Virus record (IMG/VR): IMGVR_UViG_3300025853_000133
Coordinates: 1-50,740 of that record
Strand: one strand, 5' to 3'
From: a virus
Length of the DNA stretch: 50,740 bases
The position numbers and the translations under genes are program-made. The notes below the pieces were generated by a model. That model was given only the letters and a program-made list of their open reading frames with translations, was not told where the DNA came from and did not search any database. Shown in pieces: positions 1,091 to 49,959 of the stretch. Every line of letters begins with the position of its first letter. Positions within the stretch are counted from its first letter, which is position 1.

Positions 1091-2865
1091 GCATTGAGAA
1101 CCTCTTTCAACAGATTCCTGCAAACATCTCTGGCCTTAGATGTGAGGTATTAGTTGTTGGCGGCGGTGGTGGAGGCGGAGACTACCACAACACTGCTTTC
1201 CTTACAGGTGGTGCCGGTGCAGGTGGTTTAGCCAATGCAACCATTACTTTACCTATTGGCAGTAATGCTGTTGTTGTAGGAAATGGTGGCGTAGGAAATG
1301 GTGATACTAGTCAACTTGGTGAAAACGGTGGTCAGTCTTCTATAGGCCCAGTCATTGCACTTGGTGGGGCAGGAGCGCAAGGTCACGGTAACACAGCGGC
1401 ACAAACCTATGCTGAAAGATCTCGCTTTGGTGGGTGCGGTGCAGGTGCAAGTGCTAGACAAGATTCATCGACAAGTGAGGGTTTACCCGGCCTTGGATTA
1501 CAAGGTAATGACGGTGGAGAGTGTTTAAATCATCTTACATCTGGAGGTGGTGGAGGCCAAGGGGAAGCAGGAAAAGTTGCAGGAGCCAGTAATGATGGTG
1601 GCGATGGTGGCGATGGTACTTCTGCTTATGACACTTGGTTACAAGTCACATCGCAGGGCGTAGACTCTGGCGGAGTGCGTTACATCGGCGGTGGTGGAGG
1701 TGGTTCTGGATACACTGGTGGAACATCAGGATCTGGCGGTCTAGGTGGAGGTGCAGATGGCGCACTTTCAGGCACAGGAGCTAACGCTACGGCAAACACT
1801 GGTGGCGGTGCAGGTGGAATGCTTAATGGCACTCCCGGCAATGGCGGATCAGGTTTAGTAATAGTTCGCTACGACAAAGCAAATGGTCAGTTAGCCACAG
1901 GCGGTACAGTCACAAGTGATGTTGATTACTATTACCACACGTTCACAAGCTCTGGGACGTTTACTGTTGCAGTTACTGCCACATTACCACGCACGTTTAT
2001 AAGCACAGGTGCTGGTACAGGTTCTGGTGGAACAGAAGTCACATCTGGCGGGTACAAATATCATACCTTTACGTCAACTTCTTCATTCACCGTGTCAGAT
2101 GCAGGACTGTTTGAAGTTCTTGTAGTTGGCGGTGGCGGCGCTGGTGGAAGCGGAAGCGGGGGTGGTGATTGCGGTGGCGGTGGCGGCGCTGGTGGTGTCA
2201 CATCCAGCACAATCTACTTAGACGCAATATCCCACTCTGTTGTAGTTGGCGCTGGTGGAGCCGGTGGCAATGATAATGCTTTTACAAAATGTTTTGGAGG
2301 AGACTCCAGTTCTATTGGCCCAGTAATTGGTATTGGAGGAGGTTTTGGTGAACCTTCTCAAAACACAAGATCTGGTAGAGCCGGTGATGGCGGTTCAGGA
2401 GGTGGCGGTGCCGATAATGGAACGAACGATGCCGATGGTAACAGGGGGCATTCTTTAGGGACTTCGGCTCAACCTCAAGGAAATTCCGGTGGTAACGGGC
2501 TTAATGAGCTAGGTGCTGGCGGTGGCGGTGGAGCAGGTGCCGCTGGGCAAGATGGACAAGCCGCTGGTAGTGGTACAGGTGGTGCTGGCGGTGCTGGAAC
2601 TGGATCTTATAACACTTGGCTATCTGCCACTTCTCAAGGTGTAGATGTATCAGGAACCTTGTATGTAGCTGGAGGCGGTGGCGGTTCTGGTAACGTAATT
2701 GGCGGTGCAGGAGGTTCTGGTGGCGGTGGCGCTGGTGCCGCTGGAGTAGATGCAGGTGGCAACGGCACAGCGAATACCGGAGGCGGTGGCGGTGGTAATG
2801 AGAGTGCTGGCGCAGATTCAGGTTCCGGTGGTTCAGGTCTAGTAATTATAAGGTACGCAGTCTAA
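1087..2865 (+). CDS. Glycine-rich adhesin / tail fibre tip protein (paralog 2)
   Basis: 592 residues, very rich in Gly with Ser, Thr, Asn and Asp. The N-terminus carries IPANISGLRCEVLVVGGG, closely matched in the next gene. The first glycine-rich module (about residues 18-258) ends GSGLVIVRY. A linker follows with two YYYHTFTSSGTFTV-like repeats (about 280-345). A second module opens FEVLVVGGGG and ends GSGLVIIRYAV. There is no signal peptide or membrane segment. A role in host recognition at the tail tip is inferred from composition and from its place in a structural block. It starts inside the stop of the previous gene and ends in a TAATG overlap, so the three paralogs are translationally coupled. 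Confidence 0.75.
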   Translation: MSIENLFQQIPANISGLRCEVLVVGGGGGGGDYHNTAFLTGGAGAGGLANATITLPIGSNAVVVGNGGVGNGDTSQLGENGGQSSIGPVIALGGAGAQGHGNTAAQTYAERSRFGGCGAGASARQDSSTSEGLPGLGLQGNDGGECLNHLTSGGGGGQGEAGKVAGASNDGGDGGDGTSAYDTWLQVTSQGVDSGGVRYIGGGGGGSGYTGGTSGSGGLGGGADGALSGTGANATANTGGGAGGMLNGTPGNGGSGLVIVRYDKANGQLATGGTVTSDVDYYYHTFTSSGTFTVAVTATLPRTFISTGAGTGSGGTEVTSGGYKYHTFTSTSSFTVSDAGLFEVLVVGGGGAGGSGSGGGDCGGGGGAGGVTSSTIYLDAISHSVVVGAGGAGGNDNAFTKCFGGDSSSIGPVIGIGGGFGEPSQNTRSGRAGDGGSGGGGADNGTNDADGNRGHSLGTSAQPQGNSGGNGLNELGAGGGGGAGAAGQDGQAAGSGTGGAGGAGTGSYNTWLSATSQGVDVSGTLYVAGGGGGSGNVIGGAGGSGGGGAGAAGVDAGGNGTANTGGGGGGNESAGADSGSGGSGLVIIRYAV

Positions 2866-4637
2866 TGGCAATATCACTATTAAGTGCAGAAATTCCAAAC
2901 AATGCATCAGGACTAAAATGTGAAGTCTTAGCTGTTGCAGGTGGAGGTGCCGGTGGTAATGGCGGTGGCGCTGGCGATCCTTCTGGTGGCGGAGGTGCCG
3001 GGGGTGTCACTTCTGCCACAATTATTTTTCCTACAGGAAGCACTGCTGTAGAAATTGGTGCCGGTGGGGGCTCAGGTACTTTCAGAACAACTCCAGCAGG
3101 AGCTGGGTTTTCTACCAGCGTAGCATCCATCACTGCAATTGGTGGCGGCAGAGGCGGTGAAGGTGACAGTACATTAGGTAATATTGCAGGTTCTGGCGGA
3201 TCTGGAGGTGGAGGAGGTCACGCCTATGACGCTACGGCAACCCTTCAAAGCGCATACCCCGGTACCTCTCTAGGGTCAACCCTTGATCCACAAGGTAATG
3301 ATGGTGGTAAAGGTGACACCGGAGACGGTGGCGGTGGCGGTGGCGGCGCAGGAGCGGTAGGTGGAGATTGTGTTGCGGCCTCGTTAACTGGTGGTGTGGG
3401 CGGTGCAGGTACTTCAGACTATAACGCTTGGCTAGTTGCGACATCACAAGGAGAAGTGTCTGGTGGTCTTCGTTACATCGCAGGAGGCGGTGGAGGCGGT
3501 GGAAACACTACTGGCGGTGCGGGCGGTGTCGGTGGAGGCGGGGACGGTACTGCTAGCACTGTTGCTGGTGGTGATGGCACTGCCAATACTGGTGGAGGTG
3601 GCGGAGGCAACGAAGAAGCTACTGTTAGTGGAGGCAATGGTGGTTCAGGCTTAGTAATTATTCGCTATCTAAACACAGACGGCCAACAGGCCACTGGTGG
3701 TACTGTTGTAAATTCTGGTGGGTATTACTACCACACATTTACCGCTTCATCTAATTTTGTTGTAAGTACCACAGCAACTACACCTCGTATTGTTACTACT
3801 GGAACAAGTGGAACTGGAACGGGTGGCACAGAAGTTACATCGGGTGGATATAAATACCACACCTTTACAGCCACCTCCTCATTTACTGTAGTTGACCCGG
3901 GTTTGTTTGAAGTATTAGTTGTCGGCGGTGGCGGCGGAGGAGGAAACGAAAACTATTCTTCCGGCGGTGGCGGTGCAGGTGGTCTAGTACAAAAAACAAT
4001 TTTTCTTCCTACAGGGGCTAATGCAGTTGTTGTGGGAAATGGTGGTCTCGCTAATACTGCAAGTGTACCCGGAGGTCAAGCGGACAATGGTGGGGAATCT
4101 AGTATTGGTGCTGTAACTGCATTTGGCGGCGGTGGCGGTCAAGGATATGGTGCAGATGCGTCTAACCGTCAGGGAACTGCGGCTATAGGAGGTTGTGGTG
4201 CTGGCGGAGCTGCTGGTAGTAGTACATTTCAGCTTGGTGGATTAGGTCTTCAAGGGTTTTCCGGAGGCGATTGCACTATTGGACGATCTACTGTATCGAA
4301 TAGATCTGGAGCCGGTGGAGGCGGAACAGGTACCGCAGGTGAAGTTAACGAACTAGGCGGTGTTGCCTACCGTGGTGGAAATGGCGGAGATGGAACTAAT
4401 GCATACTCTACATGGGCCACGGCAACCTCTACTGGTGCAGACTCAGGTTACTACGGAGGCGGTGGCGGAGGTGGCGGCAGAGAAGCTACTGGAGGAAATG
4501 GTGGTTTAGGTGGTGGCGGAGATCAAACCGTCAGCGGTACAGCTAATACTGGTGGCGGTGGTGGTGCAACCGATGCCACTAGCGGAAGCGCTGGAAATGG
4601 CGGTTCCGGTATTGTAATTATTAGATACGCTGTTTAA
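2865..4637 (+). CDS. Glycine-rich adhesin / tail fibre tip protein (paralog 3)
   Basis: 590 residues, almost the same length and architecture as the gene before it. The N-terminus has IPNNASGLKCEVLAVAGGG, then a glycine-rich module ending GSGLVIIRYL, two HTFT linker repeats (YYYHTFTASSNFVV and YKYHTFTATSSFTV), and a second module ending GSGIVIIRYAV. The linkers and module borders are well conserved among the three paralogs while the glycine-rich interiors differ, as expected if the interiors contact receptors. It is the last of the tandem set; the next gene has its own Shine-Dalgarno site. The adhesin role is inferred. Confidence 0.75.
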   Translation: MAISLLSAEIPNNASGLKCEVLAVAGGGAGGNGGGAGDPSGGGGAGGVTSATIIFPTGSTAVEIGAGGGSGTFRTTPAGAGFSTSVASITAIGGGRGGEGDSTLGNIAGSGGSGGGGGHAYDATATLQSAYPGTSLGSTLDPQGNDGGKGDTGDGGGGGGGAGAVGGDCVAASLTGGVGGAGTSDYNAWLVATSQGEVSGGLRYIAGGGGGGGNTTGGAGGVGGGGDGTASTVAGGDGTANTGGGGGGNEEATVSGGNGGSGLVIIRYLNTDGQQATGGTVVNSGGYYYHTFTASSNFVVSTTATTPRIVTTGTSGTGTGGTEVTSGGYKYHTFTATSSFTVVDPGLFEVLVVGGGGGGGNENYSSGGGGAGGLVQKTIFLPTGANAVVVGNGGLANTASVPGGQADNGGESSIGAVTAFGGGGGQGYGADASNRQGTAAIGGCGAGGAAGSSTFQLGGLGLQGFSGGDCTIGRSTVSNRSGAGGGGTGTAGEVNELGGVAYRGGNGGDGTNAYSTWATATSTGADSGYYGGGGGGGGREATGGNGGLGGGGDQTVSGTANTGGGGGATDATSGSAGNGGSGIVIIRYAV

Positions 4638-18633: not shown

Positions 18634-20152
18634 ACCGATACCGACTTTCTGAATCTACAATATGTAGGTTCTTTTTAGTTCTTGTGACTGCTGTGTAGAA
18701 CACACGATGTTCATCGTCTGGGTTTTCTTGCAAGGTCTTGTAAGGCATGAAGCCCATGTCAGACAGCAGCACGATGTTTTCATCTTCTCCGCCTTTCATG
18801 CGGTGAATAGTGCTCAGTTTTACCGCGGGGGCTGTTGTTATTTTGCCCCGGCGTTTGATCGCCCCAAGATATTGCCGGTCGTCTGTTGACAGATTGACAA
18901 CATCTTCTGCATCCATCTCTTTTGGAGCAAGCAGGCCGTGGTTATCTTTAAGCTCTGAGAAAGACACTGGCTGATTATGGTCTAGTTCGTCCAGTGTTTT
19001 GGACATACCTGCTTTGACTGTGGCTTTTTCGCCACGCTTGGGACAGTTTTCATACAAAATTTTAGCCTCGTCTGCGGTAATTAGCTCACCGTTTTGAAGA
19101 TCCTGCCACACCCTCATGCTGTTCAGCAGCCCTTCGTCAAAACTTAGTGTACCATTTTTGGTATAGATCACCCCGTCCTGGCGCAGTGTGTCACTAAGCA
19201 TGTTTAAATTTTTTGTGGTTCTCGACATGATGGTCCACGAACCTTGGTTCATGTCGATCTCATCAACACTCATGTGGTGATGGATTTCACCGTCATGATC
19301 CGTAGACTTCCATTCTTTTGGTTGACGCACAGAAATACGTTTAGCAAGTTTAGCGGCTAAATCATGTACGCTTTTCGGTACGCGATAAGACTGCTGCAGC
19401 ACCCTGGTGTTTTCGGTAACGCCCAACATGTAGCGCACATCAACGCCTGTGTACCTGAAGATAGCTTGGTCGTCGTCCCCAGCATACCAGATACGTTTAG
19501 CGTGTTTCTTTAATACATTGACTTGTTGCCATTGCAACGGAGTCAGGTCCTGAGCTTCATCGACAATCAGGACGTCGATCCTTGGACTTAGCTCCCGCTC
19601 GACCATCAATCGAATCATGTCTGTGAAGTCGTGTTTCCCGGTCTGCTCTTTGTACTTGTTATAAATAACATCCAGCTTTTGAAGCAGCGGCCATTTAATG
19701 CTGTGGTCACCGTTGTCGTTGTACTCTTGATCCAGGGTCACACAGCGCATCTGCGACCGATTAATTAAGGTCAGATACTTATTGCCTTCTTTGGCTGACA
19801 TCTGAAGAACTCCGTCCTCGTCGTAGACGTTACGGTTGTCAAACACCATGCCCATCTCTGCCCCGATTTGTTTTAAGTCGTAGATGCCTATGATTTCTTC
19901 TTTGCGCAGCCCTAGCAGTTGAAAGCCCATTGAATGCAGCGTTCTAAAGAATGGTACGTCAATTTCTTTTAAGTTAAACGCAGCCCCGGCCCGTTCACGC
20001 GCTTCATGAATAGCCTTTCGGCTAAATGAAACAAACGCAATACGGTCTGGAGGTGTGCCGTTAGACAGCTCTTTCCGAATGATTTCCATTAAGGTGTAGG
20101 TTTTCCCGCAGCCGGGAGGCCCAAAAATTAGGCATTCAGTCTTGTCTTTCAT
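18623..20152 (-). CDS. SF1 DNA helicase (UvrD/Rep/Dda-like)
   Basis: 509 residues. Motifs are Walker A GPPGCGKT (11-18), motif Ia FVSFSRKA, Walker B VLIVDEAQD (about 194-202), motif III WYAGDDDQAIFR (about 222-233), motif V LSTIHRMKGGE and motif VI FYTAVTRTKKNLHIV. This is an ATP-driven 3'-5' or Dda-type helicase, probably for replication fork unwinding or recombination with the phage polymerase and primase. I chose ATG 20152 because the longer frame begins with TTG inside the upstream HTH gene and the Walker A site is then at the normal distance from the start. It overlaps the HTH gene by 17 bases. Confidence 0.9.
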   Translation of the reverse strand: MKDKTECLIFGPPGCGKTYTLMEIIRKELSNGTPPDRIAFVSFSRKAIHEARERAGAAFNLKEIDVPFFRTLHSMGFQLLGLRKEEIIGIYDLKQIGAEMGMVFDNRNVYDEDGVLQMSAKEGNKYLTLINRSQMRCVTLDQEYNDNGDHSIKWPLLQKLDVIYNKYKEQTGKHDFTDMIRLMVERELSPRIDVLIVDEAQDLTPLQWQQVNVLKKHAKRIWYAGDDDQAIFRYTGVDVRYMLGVTENTRVLQQSYRVPKSVHDLAAKLAKRISVRQPKEWKSTDHDGEIHHHMSVDEIDMNQGSWTIMSRTTKNLNMLSDTLRQDGVIYTKNGTLSFDEGLLNSMRVWQDLQNGELITADEAKILYENCPKRGEKATVKAGMSKTLDELDHNQPVSFSELKDNHGLLAPKEMDAEDVVNLSTDDRQYLGAIKRRGKITTAPAVKLSTIHRMKGGEDENIVLLSDMGFMPYKTLQENPDDEHRVFYTAVTRTKKNLHIVDSESRYRYDL

Positions 20153-20336
20153 TTGTCCGTACCCTGTCTTCCATCCATTCTTCAATATCTTTTTCTCGCC
20201 ACCGGATCATGCGCTCGCTGATCTTGTACGCTGCTGGGAGAAAGCCAACCTTTCGCCAACGCCAAACCGTAGAGCGGCTGACCCCTAGCATGGTTGCGAC
20301 CTCGTTCACTTTTAAATACCGATCAGAAGATTGCAT
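20136..20336 (-). CDS. AlpA/excisionase-like helix-turn-helix protein
   Basis: 66 residues. LKVNEVATMLGVSRSTVWRW is a MerR/AlpA-type helix-turn-helix, followed by the wing-like ERMIRWREKDIEEWMED. Such proteins are phage transcription regulators or directionality factors. AGGAGGAGA lies just upstream of the ATG, which overlaps the primase stop by 14 bases. No integrase is visible in the window, so a regulatory role in the replication block is more likely than excision. Confidence 0.75.
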   Translation of the reverse strand: MQSSDRYLKVNEVATMLGVSRSTVWRWRKVGFLPAAYKISERMIRWREKDIEEWMEDRVRTNERQD

Positions 20337-32725: not shown

Positions 32726-32754
32726 GTTTTACCCTCCATTTATTATGATTGGTT

Positions 32755-32783
32755 AGAGTAAACAACTAGTGAACAATAATCAA
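32755..32783 (-). promoter_or_regulatory. Promoter of the dense leftward operon with paired half-sites
   Basis: On the minus strand: -35 TTGATT (32778-32783), 17-base spacer, -10 TACTCT (32755-32760), a good sigma70-like promoter. The interval 32758-32776 contains GTAAACAA and GTGAACAA 11 bases apart on the plus strand, the same half-sites found in the palindromes of the 34-37 kb cassettes, so one regulator may control both. Confidence 0.55.
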
Positions 32784-32850
32784 TAGCTATATACACTTAT
32801 TTTTTCAGATAACAAAAAATATTTTTTCTTTCCGCAGAATGCCGTTCCAA

Positions 32851-32930
32851 ACGTACTAACGTACTAAATGGTGTTCTAGCCCGCATAAATACTGACTTCT
32901 GTTTAGTACACTCTTAGGACGTTTAGTACA
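32851..32930. repeat. Four TTAGTAC sites in two divergent pairs
   Basis: TTAGTAC occurs twice on the minus strand (GTACTAA at 32853-32859 and 32861-32867) and twice on the plus strand within GTTTAGTACA (32901-32910 and 32921-32930). The plus-strand pair has a 20-base period, about two helical turns, and the minus-strand pair an 8-base period. They lie in a non-coding AT-rich gap between divergent transcripts. Operator or origin-like iterons are both possible. Confidence 0.5.
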
Positions 32931-32957
32931 GTTATATACCCTCTTTACGATAGTTTT

Positions 32958-33014: not shown

Positions 33015-33572
33015 ATGTCTGAAAGACTGGCGCAGAAGATCGAGAAAGCATCTGATCGCACACTGACTACTCGTCAAAAGACCTTCGCACGACTCGTCGT
33101 CGAGGGAACTCACACTAACACCGAATGCGCTCGTCGAGCAGGATTCGCAAAAGAGACCTGTGCAAAACAGGCTTCTGTTCTGCTGAATGGTCGAGACTTC
33201 CCACACGTTGTCGAATACATCAAAGAACTTCGAGAAGAACGCGAACGCAAATATGGCGTCACTCTGATGGGGCAGCTTAAAAGATTGGATGAACTGTCCA
33301 GAGGCGCAGAAGATGCCGGGCAATTCTCGGCAGCTATCAATGCCGAAAAAATCCGTAGCGCACTTGGCGGGTTGACCATTGACCGACGCGAACAGGTCAA
33401 TCGATTGGACGACATGAGCAGAGCAGATATTGTTGCCAGACTCGCTGATCTCCAAAAGAAATACCCACACGCATTCATTGAGGGAGAATACAAAGATGTC
33501 ACAGCCAGAAGCGAACTTTTGGAAAATCGTCAAGAAGAACTTACCGACAGGCAGTCGCCACTGGCGGATTGA
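33015..33572 (+). CDS. terS: Terminase small subunit
   Basis: 185 residues. Residues about 18-62 hold a helix-turn-helix typical of small terminases (LTTRQKTFARLVVEGTHTNT followed by ARRAGFAKETCAK), then long charged helices for ring assembly (LREERERKYGVTLMGQLKRL) and an acidic C-terminus. It would recognise phage DNA and hand it to the large terminase encoded about 6 kb to the right. It has its own promoter and overlaps the following nuclease gene by 77 bases. Confidence 0.8.
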   Translation: MSERLAQKIEKASDRTLTTRQKTFARLVVEGTHTNTECARRAGFAKETCAKQASVLLNGRDFPHVVEYIKELREERERKYGVTLMGQLKRLDELSRGAEDAGQFSAAINAEKIRSALGGLTIDRREQVNRLDDMSRADIVARLADLQKKYPHAFIEGEYKDVTARSELLENRQEELTDRQSPLAD

Positions 33573-33966
33573 AAATAGAGCAGGATCGGGCATTCCTGAT
33601 GTGTACATAATTTGGGATGGCTTTCCAATTTGGGCCGAGCTAAAAGTAACTAAAAGCAACAAGGTTTTGTTATCTCCTTCGCAAATCGCTTGGCATATGG
33701 CGCATTCTGATTCTGGCGGTCTGTCATTCATCTTAGTCAAGCACCTCGGGACGGGGGACATATTTTTGTTCGAGGGTCGAGATGCGAGGGACGTGTTTCG
33801 CACGGGCTTGCATAATGATCCGTTGTATCGCGGTTCCATAGACGGGGTTTTGTCCCACATGAAGCAAATGTCCCATGACCATTTCTTGCGGGTCGCAGAT
33901 TGCGCGGTGCTGCGCACCGCGCAGCCACCAGGCGCAGCTGCAAAAACCAGGGATTGCGCTTCGTAA
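33496..33966 (+). CDS. VRR-type PD-(D/E)XK nuclease with a repeat-encoded C-terminus
   Basis: 156 residues from ATG 33496 (GGGAGA upstream). The nuclease core is clear: GSGIPDVYII with D35, then IWAELKVTKS with E48 and K50, then LSPSQIAWHMAHSD, the VRR-NUC or Holliday-junction-nuclease-like pattern. It may resolve branched phage DNA before packaging, which fits its pairing with the small terminase. The last 20 or so residues are encoded by the GC-rich hairpin element at 33902-33922, so the natural C-terminus was probably replaced or extended by insertion of that repeat. Confidence 0.75.
   Translation: MSQPEANFWKIVKKNLPTGSRHWRIENRAGSGIPDVYIIWDGFPIWAELKVTKSNKVLLSPSQIAWHMAHSDSGGLSFILVKHLGTGDIFLFEGRDARDVFRTGLHNDPLYRGSIDGVLSHMKQMSHDHFLRVADCAVLRTAQPPGAAAKTRDCAS
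33902..33922. repeat. GC-rich hairpin, copy 1
   Basis: Perfect 9-bp stem GCGCGGTGC with loop TGC. It is followed by CAGCCACCAGG, the flank seen beside other copies. It lies inside the 3' end of the nuclease gene. Confidence 0.7.
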
Positions 33967-33969
33967 ATT

Positions 33970-33990
33970 GCGGTTCGCGGTGCGAACCGC
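33970..33990. repeat. GC-rich hairpin, copy 2
   Basis: Perfect 9-bp stem GCGGTTCGC with loop GGT, just after the nuclease stop and on the far side of the terminator at 34049. Confidence 0.7.
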
Positions 33991-34048
33991 TGCGAACCAG
34001 GCGCAGCCCTGGCAGCCACCGGCAAACCAGGAGAGATGAAGTATGGAT

Positions 34049-34075
34049 AAAAAAAGGGCGCACGGATGTGCGCCC
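34049..34075 (-). terminator. Intrinsic terminator of cassette 1
   Basis: Minus strand: 8-bp stem GGGCGCAC/GTGCGCCC, loop ATCC, then seven T. It lies 19 bases after the stop of the 98-residue gene. Confidence 0.85.
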
Positions 34076-34093
34076 AATGGGGGGAAAGTATTA

Positions 34094-34390
34094 TTAGTGC
34101 GTTGTTCCTGTGAACATTTCGTCCACAGCACCGTCTGCTTCTTCGGCAAGTTCGACGAAGTTCTTCGCCATGCGAACCATGTCTTCGTAGCCATCTTTGC
34201 TGCCGAATAAGTCCTCGGCCATTGCTCTGTTGGAATGAAGCGCGACGACTAGAGTCGCGAACAACATCGAGCGCACCCCGATGTCTTCTTTCTCCACTAG
34301 GTCGTCCATTGCTTGAAGGATGTATTTTTTTGTTATATCCAGATCCTTGAAGAACTGGTCGATTGCTTCTTCTCTCATGTTTGAACTCAT
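34094..34390 (-). CDS. Cassette 1 protein, function unknown (98 aa)
   Basis: 98 residues, mostly helical, acidic at both ends (MREEAIDQFFKDLDITKKYI, FVELAEEADGAVDEM), with a more hydrophobic central helix (RSMLFATLVVALHSNRAMA). AAGGGGAA precedes the ATG. The gene stands alone between its own palindrome and leader hairpin and its own terminator. No family is recognised. Confidence 0.65.
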   Translation of the reverse strand: MSSNMREEAIDQFFKDLDITKKYILQAMDDLVEKEDIGVRSMLFATLVVALHSNRAMAEDLFGSKDGYEDMVRMAKNFVELAEEADGAVDEMFTGTTH

Positions 34391-34409
34391 AGGGTTCCCC
34401 TTTTGTTAA

Positions 34410-34455
34410 AGTGCAGTATTGCACTAGGTCATTGTACAAAGTGTACAACATTATA
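34410..34455 (-). promoter_or_regulatory. Cassette 1 control region: -10, palindrome, leader hairpin
   Basis: On the minus strand in transcription order: TATAAT (34450-34455), the perfect 17-bp palindrome TTGTACACTTTGTACAA (34432-34448), then a leader hairpin AGTGC-AATACT-GCACT (34410-34425) about ten bases before the ribosome site. No good -35 box is seen, so activation by a bound protein is possible. Confidence 0.6.
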
Positions 34456-34484
34456 CTATTAGACCAATTGCGAATTGACAATTG

Positions 34485-34503
34485 CGCGGTGCTGCGCACC
34501 GCG
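34485..34503. repeat. GC-rich hairpin, copy 3
   Basis: 8-bp stem CGCGGTGC with loop TGC, the same stem sequence as copy 1, upstream of the cassette 1 control region. Confidence 0.7.
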
Positions 34504-34557
34504 ATCTCCCTGGTTTTGCAGCAGCTTGCGCCAGGTTACTTTTGCGCTCCTCTGATT

Positions 34558-34578
34558 GCGCATCGCTGCGCGATGCGC
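34558..34578. repeat. GC-rich hairpin, copy 4
   Basis: Perfect 9-bp stem GCGCATCGC with loop TGC. The left flank GCTCCTCTGATTGCG matches that of copies 6 and 7, and the right flank holds CAGCCACCAGG. Confidence 0.75.
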
Positions 34579-34609
34579 CCTGCAGCCACCAGGCGTTGCA
34601 GCCACCAGG

Positions 34610-34635
34610 AAAAAATGCCTTCATTAAGAAGGCAT
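34610..34635 (-). terminator. Intrinsic terminator after the 58-residue gene
   Basis: Minus strand: 8-bp stem ATGCCTTC/GAAGGCAT, loop TTAAT, then a T run. The stop codon of the upstream gene lies inside the hairpin loop. Confidence 0.8.
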
Positions 34636-34800
34636 CCTTGGATCATCAGGATAGGTCACGAACTCTTCGTGGATAAACACGGGCAGCCATTCTTGGCGTT
34701 CCTGTTCGAGTTCAGCCACAGCTTTTTGCGCCTCTTCTCTGCTGTCGTGCGCCTCGATTTCGTAGCCGTCCTTCATTCTTATTACAAATATTGTTTTCAT
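34624..34800 (-). CDS. Tiny cassette 2 protein (58 aa), function unknown
   Basis: 58 residues starting MKTIFVIRMKDGYEIEAHDS, a strand-turn-strand, then a Glu/Gln-rich helix (REEAQKAVAELEQERQEW) and an acidic, Pro-containing end. GGAGCAAAG lies just upstream of the ATG. It sits between two terminators, downstream of the 122-residue gene, so it would be expressed by readthrough. The stop lies in the loop of its own terminator. Confidence 0.6.
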   Translation of the reverse strand: MKTIFVIRMKDGYEIEAHDSREEAQKAVAELEQERQEWLPVFIHEEFVTYPDDPRMPS

Positions 34801-34817
34801 TGCTTTGCTCCAGAAAC

Positions 34818-34848
34818 AAAAAAAGGCCGACTACCGAGGTAGCCGACC
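34818..34848 (-). terminator. Intrinsic terminator after the 122-residue gene
   Basis: Minus strand: 10-bp stem GGTCGGCTAC/GTAGTCGGCC with two G-T pairs, four-base loop, then seven T. Located 19 bases after the stop at 34867. Confidence 0.8.
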
Positions 34849-34866
34849 ATTGGGAGAGTTGTTAGA

Positions 34867-35235
34867 TCACCACCAACAGGAGTAGATGACCTCGTTGCCT
34901 TCCGCGATTTCTCGTCTTGCCCACTCGCAAAACATAATGTCTTGATCGCGGTACTCGTCTTCGGCTTCATCTTGGAATTGATGACCGTAGAAAAAACCGC
35001 CCGGACTAACGGGCATGGCTTTTCGCTCGATTGCGAGTGACAACTCTTCGATATCAATGATGTCGAGAGTAAGCTCTCCGCAGTTAAGCTCACCAGCATC
35101 GAGTCCTGTCTTGGTGACGAACTTTTGTTCCATGAACTCTTGCAGTTTGCTGTGCTTGCGCCATACAAACTGAGGTTCATGACCCTCGTTAGATTCCCCG
35201 CGCTCCCGCGCCCAAGCGTATTGATCGAGTCCCAT
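34867..35235 (-). CDS. Cassette 2 protein, conserved phage protein (122 aa)
   Basis: 122 residues starting MGLDQYAWARERGE, with FVWRKHSKLQEFME and an aromatic C-terminus ending VIYSCWW. Proteins with this MGLDQYA start and WRKH motif recur across marine phages (recalled); some databases label them after unrelated enzymes, which the sequence does not support. AGGAGAAC before the ATG is a strong ribosome site. It may bind a host factor; function unknown. Confidence 0.7.
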   Translation of the reverse strand: MGLDQYAWARERGESNEGHEPQFVWRKHSKLQEFMEQKFVTKTGLDAGELNCGELTLDIIDIEELSLAIERKAMPVSPGGFFYGHQFQDEAEDEYRDQDIMFCEWARREIAEGNEVIYSCWW

Positions 35236-35256
35236 AATGGTTCTCCTATTATTGTC

Positions 35257-35312
35257 GTGGCGACATTACCACAAGCCGATAATCTCATTGTTGTGCAAAG
35301 TGTACAATTATA
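35257..35312 (-). promoter_or_regulatory. Cassette 2 control region: -10, palindrome, leader hairpin
   Basis: Minus strand: TATAAT (35307-35312) preceded by CATTAGACCAAAG, overlapping the imperfect palindrome TTGTACACTTTGCACAA (35291-35307), then the leader hairpin GTGG/CCAC with loop TAATGTCG (35257-35272) before the ribosome site. Same order as cassette 1, but with a different loop sequence. Confidence 0.6.
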
Positions 35313-35342
35313 CTTTGGTCTAATGTTGCGACTCGTCGAGTG

Positions 35343-35361
35343 CGCTCCGCTTCGCGGAGCG
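35343..35361. repeat. GC-rich hairpin, copy 5
   Basis: 8-bp stem CGCTCCGC with loop TTC, upstream of the cassette 2 control region. Confidence 0.65.
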
Positions 35362-35410
35362 TGTAACCAGGCGCAGCAGCTTCGACCAGGTGGAGTGCGC
35401 TCCTCTGGTT

Positions 35411-35431
35411 GCGGTTCGCGGAGCGAACCGC
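35411..35431. repeat. GC-rich hairpin, copy 6
   Basis: 9-bp stem GCGGTTCGC with loop GGA, one further T-A pair outside. Left flank GCTCCTCTGGTTGCG, right flank CAGCAGCCAGG; the outer CTGG and CCAG can also pair. Confidence 0.75.
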
Positions 35432-35444
35432 AGCAGCCAGGCAT

Positions 35445-35470
35445 AAAAAAACCAGGCAGCAAGTGCCTGG
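35445..35470 (-). terminator. Intrinsic terminator of cassette 3
   Basis: Minus strand: 7-bp stem CCAGGCA/TGCCTGG, loop CTTGC, followed by seven T. Located 14 bases after the stop at 35485. Confidence 0.85.
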
Positions 35471-35484
35471 CTTCGGTTGATGAG

Positions 35485-35898
35485 TTAGGAAGCAGACCGC
35501 ATTCCACAGTGCTTACCGCTTAGAGCAATCTTCGACTCCCTGGCATTCATAAAGTTAATGGCGTGTTGAGCTGACTCGAAGAAGATGACGCCTTCTTCGG
35601 CAACTCGCGATGCATCGACCGGTACATCAAGCGACTCACCCGACGATGCATCAAAGCCGAGGATCAAAGCACGTCCGGCCAATGGCTCTGGATACTGGAA
35701 GATCGACCAGAACTTTTGGTCTTGAACGAACAGTCCCTCGTCATCGAGGAACAAGCTCACGACCTGGTCATCAAACACCAGGCTAACAGCCGTCACGGTG
35801 GTGCAGTCAATTAGTTTGTACAACGCAGCTAGCGTCTCCCCCTCGAACTCGACGTCCGATATGTCCCGTGTGAACGGGTCAATTAGTACAGCTTTCAT
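35485..35898 (-). CDS. Cassette 3 protein, possibly DUF3846-like (137 aa)
   Basis: 137 residues starting MKAVLIDPFTRDISDVEFEG, then LAALYKLIDC, LVFDDQVVSLFLDDEGLF and PLAGRALILGF. The order Lys-x-h-h-Asp-P start, Asp-Glu-Gly turn and a late Gly-x-A-h-h-h-G resembles DUF3846 proteins of phages, but this is by eye. AAGGAGAC precedes the ATG. Function unknown in either case. Confidence 0.6.
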   Translation of the reverse strand: MKAVLIDPFTRDISDVEFEGETLAALYKLIDCTTVTAVSLVFDDQVVSLFLDDEGLFVQDQKFWSIFQYPEPLAGRALILGFDASSGESLDVPVDASRVAEEGVIFFESAQHAINFMNARESKIALSGKHCGMRSAS

Positions 35899-35914
35899 AC
35901 TGTCTCCTTGTTAT

Positions 35915-35970
35915 TGTGCGGTATTGCACAGTTGATACAGTAAACATATTGTTTACAGTGCACAATTAGA
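35915..35970 (-). promoter_or_regulatory. Cassette 3 control region with overlapping palindromes and leader hairpin
   Basis: Minus strand: TCTAAT (35965-35970), then TTGTGCACTGTAAACAA (35949-35965) and the perfect palindrome GTAAACATATTGTTTAC (35940-35956), which share a half-site. The leader hairpin TGTGC-AATACC-GCACA (35915-35930) comes next. The extra site suggests two bound dimers and stronger control than in the other cassettes. Confidence 0.6.
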
Positions 35971-35996
35971 CTAAAGTCTAATGCGCTCCTCTGGTT

Positions 35997-36017
35997 GCGC
36001 CTCGCAGAGCGAGGCGC
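35997..36017. repeat. GC-rich hairpin, copy 7
   Basis: 9-bp stem GCGCCTCGC with loop AGA. Left flank GCTCCTCTGGTTGCG and right flank CAGCAGCCAGG are the same as in copy 6, while the stem differs at several paired positions. Confidence 0.75.
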
Positions 36018-36028
36018 AGCAGCCAGGT

Positions 36029-36051
36029 AAAAAGAGAGGGCTTTCGCCCTC
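36029..36051 (-). terminator. Intrinsic terminator of cassette 4
   Basis: Minus strand: 6-bp stem GAGGGC/GCCCTC with loop GAAA, then TCTTTTT. It begins inside the stop codon of the 92-residue gene. Confidence 0.8.
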
Positions 36052-36328
36052 ATGATGCTTTTTTGTATTCGTCAACGGACATGATCATGTCTTCGACCAG
36101 GTCAATGACCTCGTGGCCGTCGAATGTCATGCCGGAGGCTGAGTATATCTGCTCGGCCTCTGCCCAGTAGTCGAGCATCCGTTCCTTGATCGGAGTGGTC
36201 TGTCCCGCTTCGCGGTGTTTGGCAATGCCATACGGTGCGAGCATCAGATGACCTGTCTCGTCTTGCAGGACAAAGGTGCATATTTGAAACGTGTTCTTGA
36301 AGTGCTTTTCAAGTTCGTCTTGTGTCAT
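36050..36328 (-). CDS. Cassette 4 protein, function unknown (92 aa)
   Basis: 92 residues from ATG 36328, fixed by GGGAGGAAC. It has a helical N-terminus (DELEKHFKNTFQICTFVL), a basic middle (YGIAKHREAGQTTPIKER) and an acidic C-terminus (EVIDLVEDMIMSVDEY). No family is recognised. Confidence 0.6.
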   Translation of the reverse strand: MTQDELEKHFKNTFQICTFVLQDETGHLMLAPYGIAKHREAGQTTPIKERMLDYWAEAEQIYSASGMTFDGHEVIDLVEDMIMSVDEYKKAS

Positions 36329-36369
36329 ATTGGTTCCTCCCATTAGTAACCTCTTCGAGTATCTCATTG

Positions 36370-36391
36370 TTGTTCACAGTAAACAATTAGA
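36370..36391 (-). promoter_or_regulatory. Cassette 4 control region: -10-like box and palindrome
   Basis: Minus strand: TCTAAT (36386-36391) overlapping the palindrome TTGTTTACTGTGAACAA (36370-36386). No AATAC-type leader hairpin is seen here; the leader has only the ribosome site, unlike the other four cassettes. Confidence 0.55.
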
Positions 36392-36418
36392 CCTTAGTAG
36401 TATTGCGATTCTCTGGTT

Positions 36419-36439
36419 GCGCATCGCGGAGCGATGCGC
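36419..36439. repeat. GC-rich hairpin, copy 8
   Basis: 9-bp stem GCGCATCGC with loop GGA. Left flank TTCTCTGGTTGCG. A second hairpin CTGGTGC/GCACCAG with loop AGCA follows at 36441-36458. Confidence 0.75.
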
Positions 36440-36467
36440 TCTGGTGCAGCAGCACCAGGAACCAGGT

Positions 36468-36493
36468 AAAAAAAAGGCGGCCCGAAGGCCGCC
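36468..36493 (-). terminator. Intrinsic terminator of cassette 5
   Basis: Minus strand: 7-bp stem GGCGGCC/GGCCGCC, TTCG loop, followed by eight T. It lies 15 bases after the stop at 36508. Confidence 0.85.
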
Positions 36494-36507
36494 CGTGGGG
36501 AGAACCG

Positions 36508-36927
36508 TTATTCCGGATCTGGATAGTTCCGAACGAAGTTCTGGAGCCGCTCGATGTCTGCTTCATCGGATGGAGACTCGTCGTTGATCTCGGTGCAGAG
36601 TTGCTCAAGCTTTTCTGCTAAAACGGAAACGGCGGCGATCTTTTCAGAAAGAGTCGCGGCGGCGGAATCGAAGTTGACCAATTGATCAAGAGCAGGGTTG
36701 CCGCTGACTTGACCAATGTGCTGATCAGCCCACAATTCTTTGGTAGTCCCATTTGGGAAACCAAGGATCTGGTCATACCGTGAGTACAAAGTGTCAAGGT
36801 ATTGCTGACGTGTAACACCGGTGCTAGTTGCACCATTGGTTTGATCGAGAGCTGACTCGCGCAATGCACGAGATAACTCGGCTGGATTCATGAGGCCATT
36901 CATAAAGGCTCTATCTAAGTTTGGCAT
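36508..36927 (-). CDS. Cassette 5 protein, function unknown (139 aa)
   Basis: 139 residues from ATG 36927 with GGGGAGAG upstream. The N-terminal half is polar and helical (DRAFMNGLMNPAELSRALRE, YLDTLYSRYDQILGF), the C-terminal half is a long helix (AATLSEKIAAVSVLAEKLEQ) with an acidic tail. A short coiled-coil interaction protein is plausible. It is the rightmost of the cassettes. No family is recognised. Confidence 0.6.
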   Translation of the reverse strand: MPNLDRAFMNGLMNPAELSRALRESALDQTNGATSTGVTRQQYLDTLYSRYDQILGFPNGTTKELWADQHIGQVSGNPALDQLVNFDSAAATLSEKIAAVSVLAEKLEQLCTEINDESPSDEADIERLQNFVRNYPDPE

Positions 36928-36949
36928 GGTATCTCTCCCCAGTTGCCGA

Positions 36950-37007
36950 TGGCGGTATTGCCACATCCCAGATTGTCTCATACCTTGTACGCAGTGAACA
37001 ACCTATA
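36950..37007 (-). promoter_or_regulatory. Cassette 5 control region: -10-like box, palindrome, leader hairpin
   Basis: Minus strand: TATAGG (37002-37007) preceded by CATTAGACTAAAG, then the imperfect palindrome TTGTTCACTGCGTACAA (36985-37001), then the leader hairpin TGGC-AATACC-GCCA (36950-36963). Confidence 0.55.
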
Positions 37008-37042
37008 CTTTAGTCTAATGCACTCAGTGCGCATCGCAGGGT

Positions 37043-37063
37043 GCGTTCCGCTACGCGGAACGC
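37043..37063. repeat. GC-rich hairpin, copy 9
   Basis: 9-bp stem GCGTTCCGC with loop TAC, one further T-A pair outside. It is the rightmost copy, upstream of the cassette 5 control region. Confidence 0.7.
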
Positions 37064-37094
37064 AGTGAAGCAATAGGGGTTACTTGGGATTTTA

Positions 37095-37261: not shown

Positions 37262-37741
37262 ATGCAAAGATTAATTCGTTCGGCGACCCAAGAAGACTTA
37301 GACACTTGCGTATACATCGCAGGTGTCTTCCATGAGGGAAGTCAGTTTAAGGACGTAACAACCTATAACCCAGAAGACGCTTATGCCCATGCTGTTTTTT
37401 CGCTCAAGAGTGAGAACAAACTGTTCCTTGTTTATGAAGTAGACGGCACGGTTGTTGGTTTCTTTATTGCAGGACGGCACCCGGTTGTGTGGAATCGGCA
37501 AGAGTATGTGTCAACAGAAGAACTGTTTTACATTCTTCCTGATCACAAAAGTCCAAGGGCCGCGCTTAAATTCTTTAGAACCTGGGAGAAATGGTGCTCG
37601 GACCACGGAACTCTGTTCATGTCGTTCACCCCGACGTCCTTTGTTGATGAGAATGTAGATCGTTGGGACAGTTTCTGTCATGCTATAGACTTCCAACGTG
37701 GTGGCGTGTACTACAAAAAGGTACTGAAGGATGCTGATTAG
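37262..37741 (+). CDS. GNAT-fold acetyltransferase-like protein
   Basis: 159 residues. The N-terminus RLIRSATQEDLDTCVYIA, then NKLFLVYEVDGTVVGFFIAG (strands 3-4 of the GNAT fold) and HKSPRAALKFFRTWEKWC in place of the usual acetyl-CoA loop. From memory, similar proteins sit beside terminase genes in many marine phages and may be structural or modify virion or host proteins. It is the first gene of the rightward packaging and capsid block and overlaps the next gene by 11 bases. Confidence 0.65.
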   Translation: MQRLIRSATQEDLDTCVYIAGVFHEGSQFKDVTTYNPEDAYAHAVFSLKSENKLFLVYEVDGTVVGFFIAGRHPVVWNRQEYVSTEELFYILPDHKSPRAALKFFRTWEKWCSDHGTLFMSFTPTSFVDENVDRWDSFCHAIDFQRGGVYYKKVLKDAD

Positions 37742-39500
37742 CCGTTTTTGTGAAGCTCGTGGATGGTACGAAGCTGACAATTCTATTGAATCAAAGATTT
37801 TTTGTTTTGGTGACGAGGGCGGCAGCTCCGGCAGTGGCTCAACCACTGATGATGCATACGAGCCTGGAAACCAGCAAACTGGACAAGGGTCTCGTCCTCC
37901 TGGCGGTTCTGATGCCAGTGGAGATCCTTCTGAAGAATCAACAGTAGATTATAGTGGCGACCCTGGTTTCGACGAGGGCGACACTGGCGACACTGGAGGT
38001 ACCGGGGCTGATTCTAATTTTTATCCTGATGCCAGTGGTGCTCCTGTTTATCCTCAAGCTCCTGATTATTCAAGACCATCTCCCGCCCCAACCCCTGCCC
38101 CAACCCCCGCTCCAGCAAATATCGGAGACAATCAATCTCGTGGCGTGGACATCCCCAACCTTCAACGAGACAGACGAGACAGAGAAGAAGATGAGGTTCT
38201 TGGACAATTAGAAAGAGAAAAGCTCGCTAGAGAGTTAAATGTTACATCTCCCCTTAATTTGGGAGAGGATGATTCCTTGTTTGGTCAGATAGGTCCAGGT
38301 GGAGAACTTTTTGATTATTCCGGCCAAGACGATATTTTTGGAGACTTAACTGAAAAGCAATTAGAGCGGCAAGAGTATGTGTCTGGGCTAACTCCTGGAT
38401 CTCCTGCTGCGGCGATTACTTCGCAAGTTACTGATCTTAATGCCAGCGGAGATCCTTCTGAACAATCAACAGTAGATTTTAGTAATAATATATCTCCTGT
38501 TGATTTGGATGAAGTGCCTGCCGGAGCTATAGATCTTACTACAGCGGGGGCTACTCCCCCTGGATCATCAACTCCCCCTGAAGACGCCAGAGGGGTAGAC
38601 ATTTTTGGTGACGTTGACCCGGTTGATCTAATCGGGCCGGTTGATCTTGACGAAACTCCCGCTGGTGCCTTAAACCCGTTTGCTCAAATGGAGCAAGAAG
38701 TAGCCCAGGGCCTGGGTACGGGGACCGCGGCCCTCGGACCTGTTACCGATAAATACGCTGGCGAAGTAGTTCCGGGCATGGGAGAGTCGATTGATCGAGC
38801 GATTAGTGATTTTGCCGGTCAGCGCATTGGAAGAATTCAAGAAATAGATGATGAGGGGAATGTCACGACAGAAGATTTTGGGCTGCGTGGAGACCTTGTA
38901 TCAAAACCCACTCCGTTTCTTTCCGGATATGATCCGGCTCAACAAAACATAATGGAAGAAGGGTATTTAGCAGAAAGACGTATTGATCTACCGTTTTCGC
39001 CTTTTGCTGAAGGCATTCTGAATGCGGTGGTTAATCCTATAGCTATGGTTACCGATGCAATCCGCAATAGGGGCGCGATTCCAATTTACAGTAAAGACGG
39101 AACTCAAATTATCGGAGCAAAATCTCCTGACGGAAGCGTAGTTTATTCAGAAACTCCGTTTAGTGATATTCTTTCTGGAATTACAGGTGATTTAGATCCG
39201 AATATGCAGGAATCGTATTCAGACATGCACTCTATGCAGGCAGAAGCTCGATCCAGGGACAGCAACAACGAGGACGAGTATACAAAAAGGCAGCAAGAAG
39301 AACTACGAGAACCTGAACCTGAACCCGAACCAGACTATGCAGGGCGAAATATTATCCAAACTCCAAACTATCAGGCTCGTGGGCCGGTGAGTTATGCGTA
39401 TACAGGGCTTCCGAGCCTAGCTCCGCAGAAATTGAAGCCAACTTATGTGGCTAAGGGACAGTATTCGCCACTATTCCCGATGGGACAGCGTCGTAGATAA
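37731..39500 (+). CDS. Large acidic low-complexity virion-associated protein
   Basis: 589 residues. Residues about 25-135 are disordered: Gly, Ser, Asp, Pro and Thr, with SPAPTPAPTPAPAN and the repeat DASGDPSE(E/Q)STVD occurring twice (about 60 and 240). Further repeats of PVDLDE(V/T)PAGA (about 255 and 302) suggest internal duplication. The C-terminus is basic and aromatic (LKPTYVAKGQYSPLFPMG). It lies directly before the large terminase (TAATG overlap). A structural or capsid-assembly role is inferred from position only. Confidence 0.5.
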   Translation: MLISRFCEARGWYEADNSIESKIFCFGDEGGSSGSGSTTDDAYEPGNQQTGQGSRPPGGSDASGDPSEESTVDYSGDPGFDEGDTGDTGGTGADSNFYPDASGAPVYPQAPDYSRPSPAPTPAPTPAPANIGDNQSRGVDIPNLQRDRRDREEDEVLGQLEREKLARELNVTSPLNLGEDDSLFGQIGPGGELFDYSGQDDIFGDLTEKQLERQEYVSGLTPGSPAAAITSQVTDLNASGDPSEQSTVDFSNNISPVDLDEVPAGAIDLTTAGATPPGSSTPPEDARGVDIFGDVDPVDLIGPVDLDETPAGALNPFAQMEQEVAQGLGTGTAALGPVTDKYAGEVVPGMGESIDRAISDFAGQRIGRIQEIDDEGNVTTEDFGLRGDLVSKPTPFLSGYDPAQQNIMEEGYLAERRIDLPFSPFAEGILNAVVNPIAMVTDAIRNRGAIPIYSKDGTQIIGAKSPDGSVVYSETPFSDILSGITGDLDPNMQESYSDMHSMQAEARSRDSNNEDEYTKRQQEELREPEPEPEPDYAGRNIIQTPNYQARGPVSYAYTGLPSLAPQKLKPTYVAKGQYSPLFPMGQRRR

Positions 39501-40966
39501 TGTCCGCGGCCCTTGAATCTCTGCCAGATGAGGTGCTCAAGGAGATTTTGTCGCTCAAAGAAGCGCAGATTCGGCTTGAAACCCGTGAAAAGGCCCAAGA
39601 TCAGTTCATGCCCTTCGTCCACCACGTCTATGACGGGTTCATCGAAGGACGACATCACCGAATTATCGCCGAAAAGCTCGAACAAATCGCCCGAGGAGAG
39701 ATAAAACGGCTGATTGTGAACATGCCACCGCGTCATTCTAAGTCAGAATTCGCGTCTTACCTCATGCCAGCGTGGTTTTTGGGCCGAAATCCGAAGTTAA
39801 AGATTATTCAGGCGACGCATAACACCGAATTGGCGGTCAGATTTGGCCGAAAAGTACGAGATTTAATGGGATCGGAGCAATATCGTGAAATTTTTCCAGA
39901 AACACTTCTCAAATCAGACGATAAAGCAGCGGGTCGCTGGGGTACGGCAGCGGGTGGCGAATATTTCGCCGCTGGTGTGGGCGCGGCGGTCACTGGCCGC
40001 GGCGCGGACCTGTTTATCATCGACGACCCTCATTCGGAACAAGATGCCCTTAGTGAAACAGCGTTTGATCACGCTTATGAATGGTATACGTCAGGCCCTC
40101 GTCAACGTCTACAACCGGGTGGCGCGATTATTCTAGTCATGACACGGTGGGGCACGAAGGATCTCACCGGTCGATTGCTCAAAGCACAAGCTAATGACGT
40201 TATGAGCGATCAGTGGGAAGTTGTTGAATTTCCTGCAATTATGCCCTCAGACAACCCATTATGGCCTGAATTTTGGAACAAAGACGACCTGCTCAAGGTT
40301 AAGGCTGCACTGCCCGTTGCCAAGTGGAACGCGCAATGGCAGCAGCAACCGACAGCTTCAGAAGGCGCAATTGTCAAAAAGGAGTGGTGGCAAACCTGGG
40401 AAGATGAAGAAATCCCGCCTGTCAAGTATGTCATGCAGAGCTATGATACTGCGTTCTCGAAGAAAGAGACGGCTGACTACTCAGCGATCACGACGTGGGG
40501 TGTGTTTGAACCAGAAGAAGGCGGTCCAGACCATCTTATTTTACTGGATGCACGGCGAGGACGGTGGAATTTCCCAGAATTGAAGGAAATTGCCCTGGAA
40601 GAACACGACTATTGGGAGCCAGACATGGTAATTGTGGAGGCAAAAGCCTCTGGAATGCCGTTAACCGACGAATTACGCAGGACAGGCATACCTGTGATGA
40701 ATTATACTCCGTCGAAAGGTCGTGATAAAGTGACTCGGATGCACACAGTCGCCCCTCTTTTTGAGGCTGGAATGGTGTGGGCACCGGATAAAAAGTTCGC
40801 AGATGAAGTTATCGAGGAGTGCGCAGCGTTCCCGATGGGTGATCACGACGATTTTGTGGACAGCATGACGATGGCGTTGATTCGTTTTCGGCAAGGTGGC
40901 TTTATTGCACTGGCTGGAGAAGAGGAAGACGTGGAAGATATACCAAGATATAGAGAGTATTACTAA
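39500..40966 (+). CDS. terL: Terminase large subunit
   Basis: 488 residues, the DNA-packaging motor and nuclease. The ATPase has the Walker A-like NMPPRHSKSEF (about 74-84), Walker B LFIIDDPHSE (D175, D176) and a coupling motif near MTRWGTKDLTGR. The C-terminal RNase H-fold nuclease has QSYDTAFSKK and DDFVDSMTMAL (D451, D454). The HSKS variant of Walker A is common in this terminase family. It joins the portal gene by a TAATG overlap; the matching small subunit lies about 6 kb to the left in its own transcription unit. Confidence 0.95.
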   Translation: MSAALESLPDEVLKEILSLKEAQIRLETREKAQDQFMPFVHHVYDGFIEGRHHRIIAEKLEQIARGEIKRLIVNMPPRHSKSEFASYLMPAWFLGRNPKLKIIQATHNTELAVRFGRKVRDLMGSEQYREIFPETLLKSDDKAAGRWGTAAGGEYFAAGVGAAVTGRGADLFIIDDPHSEQDALSETAFDHAYEWYTSGPRQRLQPGGAIILVMTRWGTKDLTGRLLKAQANDVMSDQWEVVEFPAIMPSDNPLWPEFWNKDDLLKVKAALPVAKWNAQWQQQPTASEGAIVKKEWWQTWEDEEIPPVKYVMQSYDTAFSKKETADYSAITTWGVFEPEEGGPDHLILLDARRGRWNFPELKEIALEEHDYWEPDMVIVEAKASGMPLTDELRRTGIPVMNYTPSKGRDKVTRMHTVAPLFEAGMVWAPDKKFADEVIEECAAFPMGDHDDFVDSMTMALIRFRQGGFIALAGEEEDVEDIPRYREYY

Positions 40967-49371: not shown

Positions 49372-49437
49372 ATATGTATACTCTGAGAAACTTCTGACGA
49401 TCATTGTGATCGACACTAGCCACGACAGGAGATTCTC

Positions 49438-49959
49438 ATGGCAAATACTACCTTCAGCGGTCCGGTCCGCTCAGAAAACGGCTTTAAAGCTGTCACAAAA
49501 AACGCAACCACTGGTGCGATTACTGAAATCACAACTTATGGTGGTGCCCCTGTTGCTTTAGCTGATGGCGACGTCACGTTAACTAATGCAACGCATAGCG
49601 GTCGTGTTTTGATTGTTCCTAATGGAACTCAGGACAATACTTATACGCTTCCTAGCCCAGTAGCTGGTGCATATTTCACTTTTGTTTATGGTGGTGGTGC
49701 GGCTGACGCAACCGACTTCATCGTAAACTCTGGTTCAGACACCAACTTCTTCATTGGTGGTGTTCTTCATCTTGATACAGATGCTGACGCTGGAGCAGAT
49801 GAAATTGTTCCTGTTTACTCAAACGGTAGCTCAAACTCAAAACTTCAAGTAAATGTTCCTGGGATGGCGCAAGTTCATGTTGTGGCAATCGACGGAACTA
49901 ACTGGCAGGTTTGGGGCAATGTAGCGAGTGCAACTGCACCAGCATTTGCTAACCAATAA
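49438..49959 (+). CDS. Putative virion decoration protein
   Basis: 173 residues, beta-rich: TFSGPVRSENGFKAVTKNAT, HSGRVLIVPNGTQDNTYTLP and KLQVNVPGMAQVHVVAIDGT. No Cys. CAGGAGA precedes the ATG. It is read from a unit of its own after the terminators, followed by a similar beta-rich gene. A surface decoration or tail-fibre accessory role is inferred. Confidence 0.55.
   Translation: MANTTFSGPVRSENGFKAVTKNATTGAITEITTYGGAPVALADGDVTLTNATHSGRVLIVPNGTQDNTYTLPSPVAGAYFTFVYGGGAADATDFIVNSGSDTNFFIGGVLHLDTDADAGADEIVPVYSNGSSNSKLQVNVPGMAQVHVVAIDGTNWQVWGNVASATAPAFANQ

Follow-up and report, generated by a model that had tools for sequence, protein, structure and literature searches.

A probable moron-like island of accessory units with a repeated control module beside the packaging genes of a marine phage

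An IMG/VR virus record of 50,740 bases (IMGVR_UViG_3300025853_000133; the whole stretch is called the window below), derived from a marine phage, was found to carry an island of five accessory transcription units on the minus strand, at 33901-37064, within the packaging region. When the six genes of the island were compared with one another, no sequence in common was detected, whereas the parts around them were repeated from unit to unit, as had been claimed in a sequence-only reading of the same DNA. We consider it probable (roughly 0.7) that these accessory units are moron-like and tied to the early regulon through a lineage-specific operator, and that the repeats offer short homology for exchange.

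The order of parts in a unit was GC-rich (GC) hairpin or hairpins, TTAGAC/-10-like box, 17-bp palindrome (consensus TTGTnCAnnnTGnACAA), leader hairpin, Shine-Dalgarno site, gene or genes, and intrinsic terminator. All the parts named in the sequence-only reading were thus present, in order and on the minus strand. The -10-like box that it had placed with the palindrome turned out to be a portion of a longer conserved TTAGACYAAAGTATAAT block. The GC hairpins are of fixed form (10-bp stem, 3-nt loop); one or two follow the terminator at each junction and precede the next palindrome, as described earlier, and two lie beyond the last gene. A leader hairpin is present in four of the five units, the one cassette said to lack it being that of g2 (36050-36328). 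Only one unit has two genes (34867-35235 and 34624-34800), again in agreement with the sequence-only reading; the second, g4b, sits downstream of an internal terminator, so that g4a and g4b do not form a plain operon. Intrinsic terminators after g1, g2, g4a and g5 were located by a terminator scan, and those of g3 and g4b by reading. The features are given below with their positions in the window and the strand, (-) for minus; the coordinates of short parts were taken from sequence reading and scans.

33901..37064 (-) entire island of five accessory units that share repeated control parts
37042..37064 (-) unit 1 GC hairpin, 10-bp stem and 3-nt loop
37003..37018 (-) unit 1 TTAGAC/-10-like box (TTAGACTAAAGTATAG)
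36985..37001 (-) unit 1 palindrome, putative operator
36949..36964 (-) unit 1 leader hairpin, GTGGC-AATACC-GCCAT
36508..36927 (-) gene g1, 139 aa, no family
36475..36494 (-) g1 terminator (scan)
36441-36458 (-) further hairpin CTGGTGCTGCTGCACCAG, on the upstream side of the unit 2 GC hairpin
36418..36440 (-) unit 2 GC hairpin
36370..36386 (-) unit 2 palindrome, without a leader hairpin after it
36050..36328 (-) gene g2, 92 aa, no family
36036..36051 (-) g2 terminator (scan)
35996..36018 (-) unit 3 GC hairpin
35966..35981 (-) unit 3 box, perfect palindrome TTAGACTTTAGTCTAA
35949..35965 (-) unit 3 palindrome, putative operator
35915..35930 (-) unit 3 leader hairpin, TGTGC-AATACC-GCACA
35485..35898 (-) gene g3, DUF3846 (PF12957, E = 4.9e-9)
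35452..35470 (-) g3 terminator, CCAGGCACTTGCTGCCTGG and T run (by reading)
35410..35432 (-) unit 4 first GC hairpin
35341..35363 (-) unit 4 second GC hairpin
35308..35323 (-) unit 4 box TTAGACCAAAGTATAA
35291..35307 (-) unit 4 palindrome, putative operator
35257..35272 (-) unit 4 leader hairpin, GTGGT-AATGTC-GCCAC
34867..35235 (-) gene g4a, 122 aa, MGLDQYA family
34825..34848 (-) terminator separating g4a and g4b (scan)
34624..34800 (-) gene g4b, 58 aa, no family
34615..34635 (-) g4b terminator, overlapping the stop codon (by reading)
34556..34580 (-) unit 5 first GC hairpin
34483..34505 (-) unit 5 second GC hairpin
34432..34448 (-) unit 5 palindrome, putative operator
34410..34425 (-) unit 5 leader hairpin, AGTGC-AATACT-GCACT
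34094..34390 (-) gene g5, 98 aa, no family
34056..34075 (-) g5 terminator (scan)
33969..33991 (-) distal GC hairpin 1, past the last gene
33901..33923 (-) distal GC hairpin 2, overlapping the 3' end of the plus-strand nuclease open reading frame (ORF)
32749..32765 (-) operator-like site beyond the island, at the early leftward promoter

The repeated parts were compared with chance. The palindrome consensus, with at most 1 mismatch, occurred 5 times in the window, always within the island, whereas 300 shuffled versions of the island gave 0. Of hairpins with a 3-nt loop and 8 or more perfect bp, the island has nine; the mean in shuffles was 0.05. For the box TTAGACTAAAGTATAATTG, allowing up to 3 mismatches, there were 4 matches (0.01 expected), all within the island; two of the 4 are opposite strands of one palindromic copy. 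The island and its relatives gave no match to Rfam.

A search of related genomes for the palindrome and hairpin flanks, which the sequence-only reading had proposed, was carried out by TerL, gene and pattern scans. The same module, with a gene content that differed in part, was recovered at this locus in L083, L011, L008, L086/L087 and L088 only. The module sample is six contigs, most of them fragments (the window and five further contigs of one narrow clade). Gene g1 is the conserved first unit in all relatives carrying the module, and variable units come after it: g2, DUF3846, g4a+g4b and g5 in the window; MESF, FIQ+KYW and g4a in L086; FIQ+KYW+DUF3846 and g4a in L011; MRLTFF and KYW in L008. 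Such unrelated genes, varying in content between relatives, bear out the suggestion of an accessory set behind one control module. Neither the module nor g1 had a match in 50,697 phage records. A wider spread of the module was rejected, since the pattern matches in viruses outside the clade and 21 in bacterial genomes lacked the hairpin and palindrome and are due to chance. Among the remaining TerL relatives, this place is taken by a reverse-strand accessory island that lacks the module, and g4a homologues occur there. In L009, L014, L067, L090, L092 and L132 the accessory genes of the locus are also parted by terminators, lineage-specific GC-rich repeats and promoter-like boxes, the border repeats being units of GGGTCGCA, CCGCAGG, CCCGA and AGTCGCAAGGCGCA. 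The hairpins of the window thus resemble the form that a widespread type of border has taken in one lineage.

A long leader of about 120 nt was seen in the FIQ/KYW unit (L011 1846-1970 (-), L008 108-225 (-)), with no Rfam match. It folds as a single long stem in L011 (z -4.5), and a short hairpin takes its place in L086.

When the GC hairpins of the window and its relatives were aligned on their loops, 21 distinct forms were obtained, with 94% of the pairs formed. The 3-nt loop and a CGCA end were invariant and the middle of the stem was variable, with two-sided changes in 36 cells compared with 10 in shuffles. This covariation is no proof of selection, because template-switch repair of imperfect palindromes could also keep stems perfect. 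The leader hairpins, 16-mers with a 5-bp stem and a 6-nt loop, were 100% paired, with 8 double changes versus 1.9; the orthologous g1 leader reads GTAGC-AATATC-GCTAT in L088 and GTGGC-AATACC-GCCAC in the others. Of 17 units, 11 had a spacing of 30-34 bp from hairpin to palindrome and five one of 40-41, with 53 and 56 in the rest; that from box to palindrome was 16 in most units and 27 before g1 in several relatives. Since these steps are close to one helical turn, they hint at a DNA-level role. Concerted evolution of the modules inside one genome was also considered and is not claimed, because the likeness of paralogous modules within lineages (0.685) was barely above that between lineages (0.656).

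Beyond the island, the palindrome profile gave only two further sites in the window with a score of at least 14 (0.3 expected), at 18365 and 32749. The latter is intergenic and lies directly upstream of the first early leftward gene, with a chance of about 0.004 in that stretch. In L086/L087, the sole further profile site was at the same early-operon position (chance about 0.02). In both lineages that could be checked, no intergenic site beyond the array was more palindrome-like than the one at the early leftward promoter. With the same profile, four sister lineages scored about 4-7 (maximum 6.8) at their early promoter. L014 and L067 differ in their border repeats, and in them a motif of their own, TACACTAGT, was found only at the early promoter and the cassette promoters. 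The palindrome is probably common to the cassettes and the early promoter, a point absent from the sequence-only reading. Such sharing of a motif, lineage by lineage, would most simply mean that each lineage has its own early regulator, with the accessory units wired to it. An AlpA/excisionase-like helix-turn-helix protein at 20136-20336 is a candidate regulator only.

It may be noted that another perfect palindrome, TTAGACTnnnGTCTAA, lies upstream of cassette genes in L014 (7211-7226), L067 (7226-7241), L088 (6900-6915) and the window (35966-35981), lineages that differ in their other motifs. Possibly it overlaps the -10 as a second regulatory site of older origin.

Exchange at a unit border was observed by comparing L086 with L011. 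Positions 1-1265 of L086 are collinear with L011, which resumes at L086 1653-1890, and a unit present in L086 is missing from L011. The L011 intergenic region matches both L086 regions flanking the extra unit; it is a chimera with the switch in the GC hairpin. Other changes were placed by direct reading: a crossover inside g1 of L083, where a window-like sequence switches to an L008-like one; a deletion in L008 between two CAAATG start-codon boxes, which joined the FIQ leader to KYW at CAAATG; and an insertion of DUF3846 in L011 between direct repeats of CACAATAATTTT type. L008 also has a different gene, gained or lost, between two terminators. The proposal that the flanking repeats are exchange points is supported by one clear case, the chimeric junction, but does not account for everything. 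Because the changes in L008, L011 and L083 fall at sites other than the hairpins, the repeats, as far as their sequences tell, are favoured or convenient exchange points and not exclusive ones.

We compared the island with known systems. The promoter early stem-loop (PeSL) cassettes of T4-type phages, as described in PMC4503421, are similar in being small repeated intergenic cassettes of a stem-loop/terminator and an early-type promoter. They are dense where genes turn over fast, and the shuffling of unrelated genes among relatives is attributed to them. Here, a composite of a terminator/stem-loop and a putative, perhaps early-type, promoter lies between genes at every unit, and one unit gain/loss event with a hairpin junction was seen. 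Unlike those cassettes, the island has the order terminator, GC hairpin, promoter, with a palindromic operator and a leader hairpin added; it has no classic -35, and its units adjoin packaging genes. It also belongs to a different group of phages and not to the T4 type: the nearest TerL matches are phages 023Pt_psg01, Pelagibacter HTVC027P and DSL-LC04, and in the reading preferred below the phage is a marine podovirus-like one with a TerL closest to that of HTVC027P-type phages. Like the morons of lambdoid phages, the units are extra genes in one orientation between late genes, and a unit found in one phage is missing from the corresponding place in relatives; each has its own terminator and its own conserved, putative promoter box. 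Unlike them, they form a whole array with one common module, whose putative operator probably also occurs at the early promoter. By analogy, the island would work most like PeSL cassettes combined with morons.

In Cluster K mycobacteriophages, start-associated sequences and their extended forms (SAS and ESAS) are inverted repeats upstream of many non-structural genes and proposed protein-binding sites (PMC3203893). They share with the island repeated sites of lineage-specific consensus; they lie at start codons without hairpin covariation, whereas the GC hairpins are upstream of the promoter and covary. The SAS GGGATAGGAGCCC was not seen at the start codon in any unit leader examined. The stoperators of Cluster A mycobacteriophages are likewise many copies of one operator-like site with a lineage-specific sequence. 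In contrast to these, each island site is tied to the putative promoter of an accessory unit.

In the reading that we prefer, each unit would possess a terminator of its own and carry the same portable control module, composed of the GC hairpin element, a promoter box, a 17-bp operator near the start point, the leader hairpin and the Shine-Dalgarno site. One phage- or host-encoded regulator would read the operator both in the cassettes and at the early leftward promoter, so that a gene dropped between two modules would join the early regulon. The repeated hairpins and terminators would supply short, near-identical stretches at unit borders, through which ordinary phage recombination could add, drop or replace a unit. 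We infer repression, early timing, and homologous rather than site-specific exchange; the conserved boxes are presumed to be active promoters. Some findings weigh against this reading. The -10-like box has no recognisable -35, which leaves the promoter putative. The site at 32749 has 3 mismatches, and the better-scoring one at 18365 is inside a gene. Just one gain/loss junction was resolved at a hairpin, the other changes being in genes, terminators and start codons. Lastly, an HTH_3 phage repressor was sought in the record and none was found. That failure, together with the resemblance of the palindrome to general repressor sites, would suit a host regulator (a stress regulator, for example) and an array responsive to the host rather than to the phage early programme. 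We regard this as unlikely, since a palindrome-like site is also at the phage early promoter, and sister lineages have at the same locus another motif common to their own early promoter. A phage-specific regulator would account better for such sharing, but a difference of hosts is another explanation.

The GC hairpins can be read in other ways. Integrons and clusters of attC sites lacking integrases (CALINs), which have also been reported in phages (PMC9892861), resemble the island in their tandem small-gene units bounded by imperfectly repeated hairpins. Paired attC R boxes (RYYYAAC ... GTTRRRY), 40-150 nt apart, were not found on either strand of the island. Nor did the record, possibly an incomplete one, contain a match to PF00589 for an integron integrase, which a CALIN would not need. 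The units have putative promoters of their own, unlike integron cassettes, and the missing R boxes and integrase led us to reject the attC reading; judged on these features, the array is not an integron, in line with the sequence-only reading, in which the repeats did not match attC sites. A dedicated cassette system might still move units singly, the hairpins folding as single strands into recombination sites for a phage or host recombinase, as attC does with integron integrases. Hairpins do bound every unit, their form is strictly conserved despite change in stem sequence, and one junction is inside a hairpin. We nevertheless hold such a system to be very improbable, given that neither a tyrosine integrase nor R boxes were found, that only six contigs, all of one clade, carry the module and the scanned genome collection lacks it, and that the same genes occur in relatives without hairpins. 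It is doubtful, though possible, that the hairpins are backup terminators or insulators against antisense and neighbouring transcription, in an array that arose by tandem border duplication without any role in exchange. Their position straight after terminators and before promoters, the orientation of the island against the flanking packaging genes, and the other GC-rich repeats in the same place in sister lineages would agree with this; but T runs are missing from most hairpins, and the chimeric L011 junction requires border-to-border exchange. A stronger form of the preferred reading, in which the locus is a socket array with a lineage's own operator (at the early promoter and all units) and border repeat, genes pass from lineage to lineage and are rewired on arrival to the resident regulator, and the hairpins are active exchange sites, appears quite unlikely.

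The genes themselves were searched against Pfam, PHROGs, NCBIfam and PADLOC, and DUF3846 (g3) was the sole match; a DUF3846 locus scan recovered no relatives. The g4a family (MGLDQYA...WRKH...GGFFYGHQF...CWW) occurs in 53 viral loci, many close to TerS/TerL, and has no Pfam, PHROG or NCBIfam name. Its model (pLDDT 87) had no clear PDB match, E. coli YfbM being among the best weak ones.

On the plus strand, the island is flanked on one side by TerS (33015-33572) and a nuclease/helicase-like ORF (33430-33966, PHROG match), and on the other by a GNAT gene (37262-37741) and TerL (39500-40966). Between TerS and the early operon, at 32796-32940, there are short repeats (GTACTAAAC twice and TAGTACGTT twice); this gap has other repeats in relatives, namely GTAACG units in L014, L067 and L086 and TGTCTTAA units in L024. 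Like the cassette motifs they are lineage-specific, and they might be iterons of an origin or operators. Elsewhere in the window, the structural region has an Rfam match to the Mu-gpT-DE RNA (RF03012, 52.1 bits) at 49392-49440 (+), and tail-fibre-like genes with long glycine-rich repeat runs (GGTGGCGGTGG) lie at 210-4637.

How a phage adds genes without breaking its own programme is an open question. If the reading preferred here is true, abundant uncultivated marine phages would have a concrete solution, a fixed slot with a local early operator and exchange-easing repeats, which would allow plug-in addition of genes under existing control. It predicts a single regulator for the early operon and all cassettes, and borders that recombine. 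The slot between TerS/nuclease and GNAT/TerL would then be a place to seek new accessory genes.

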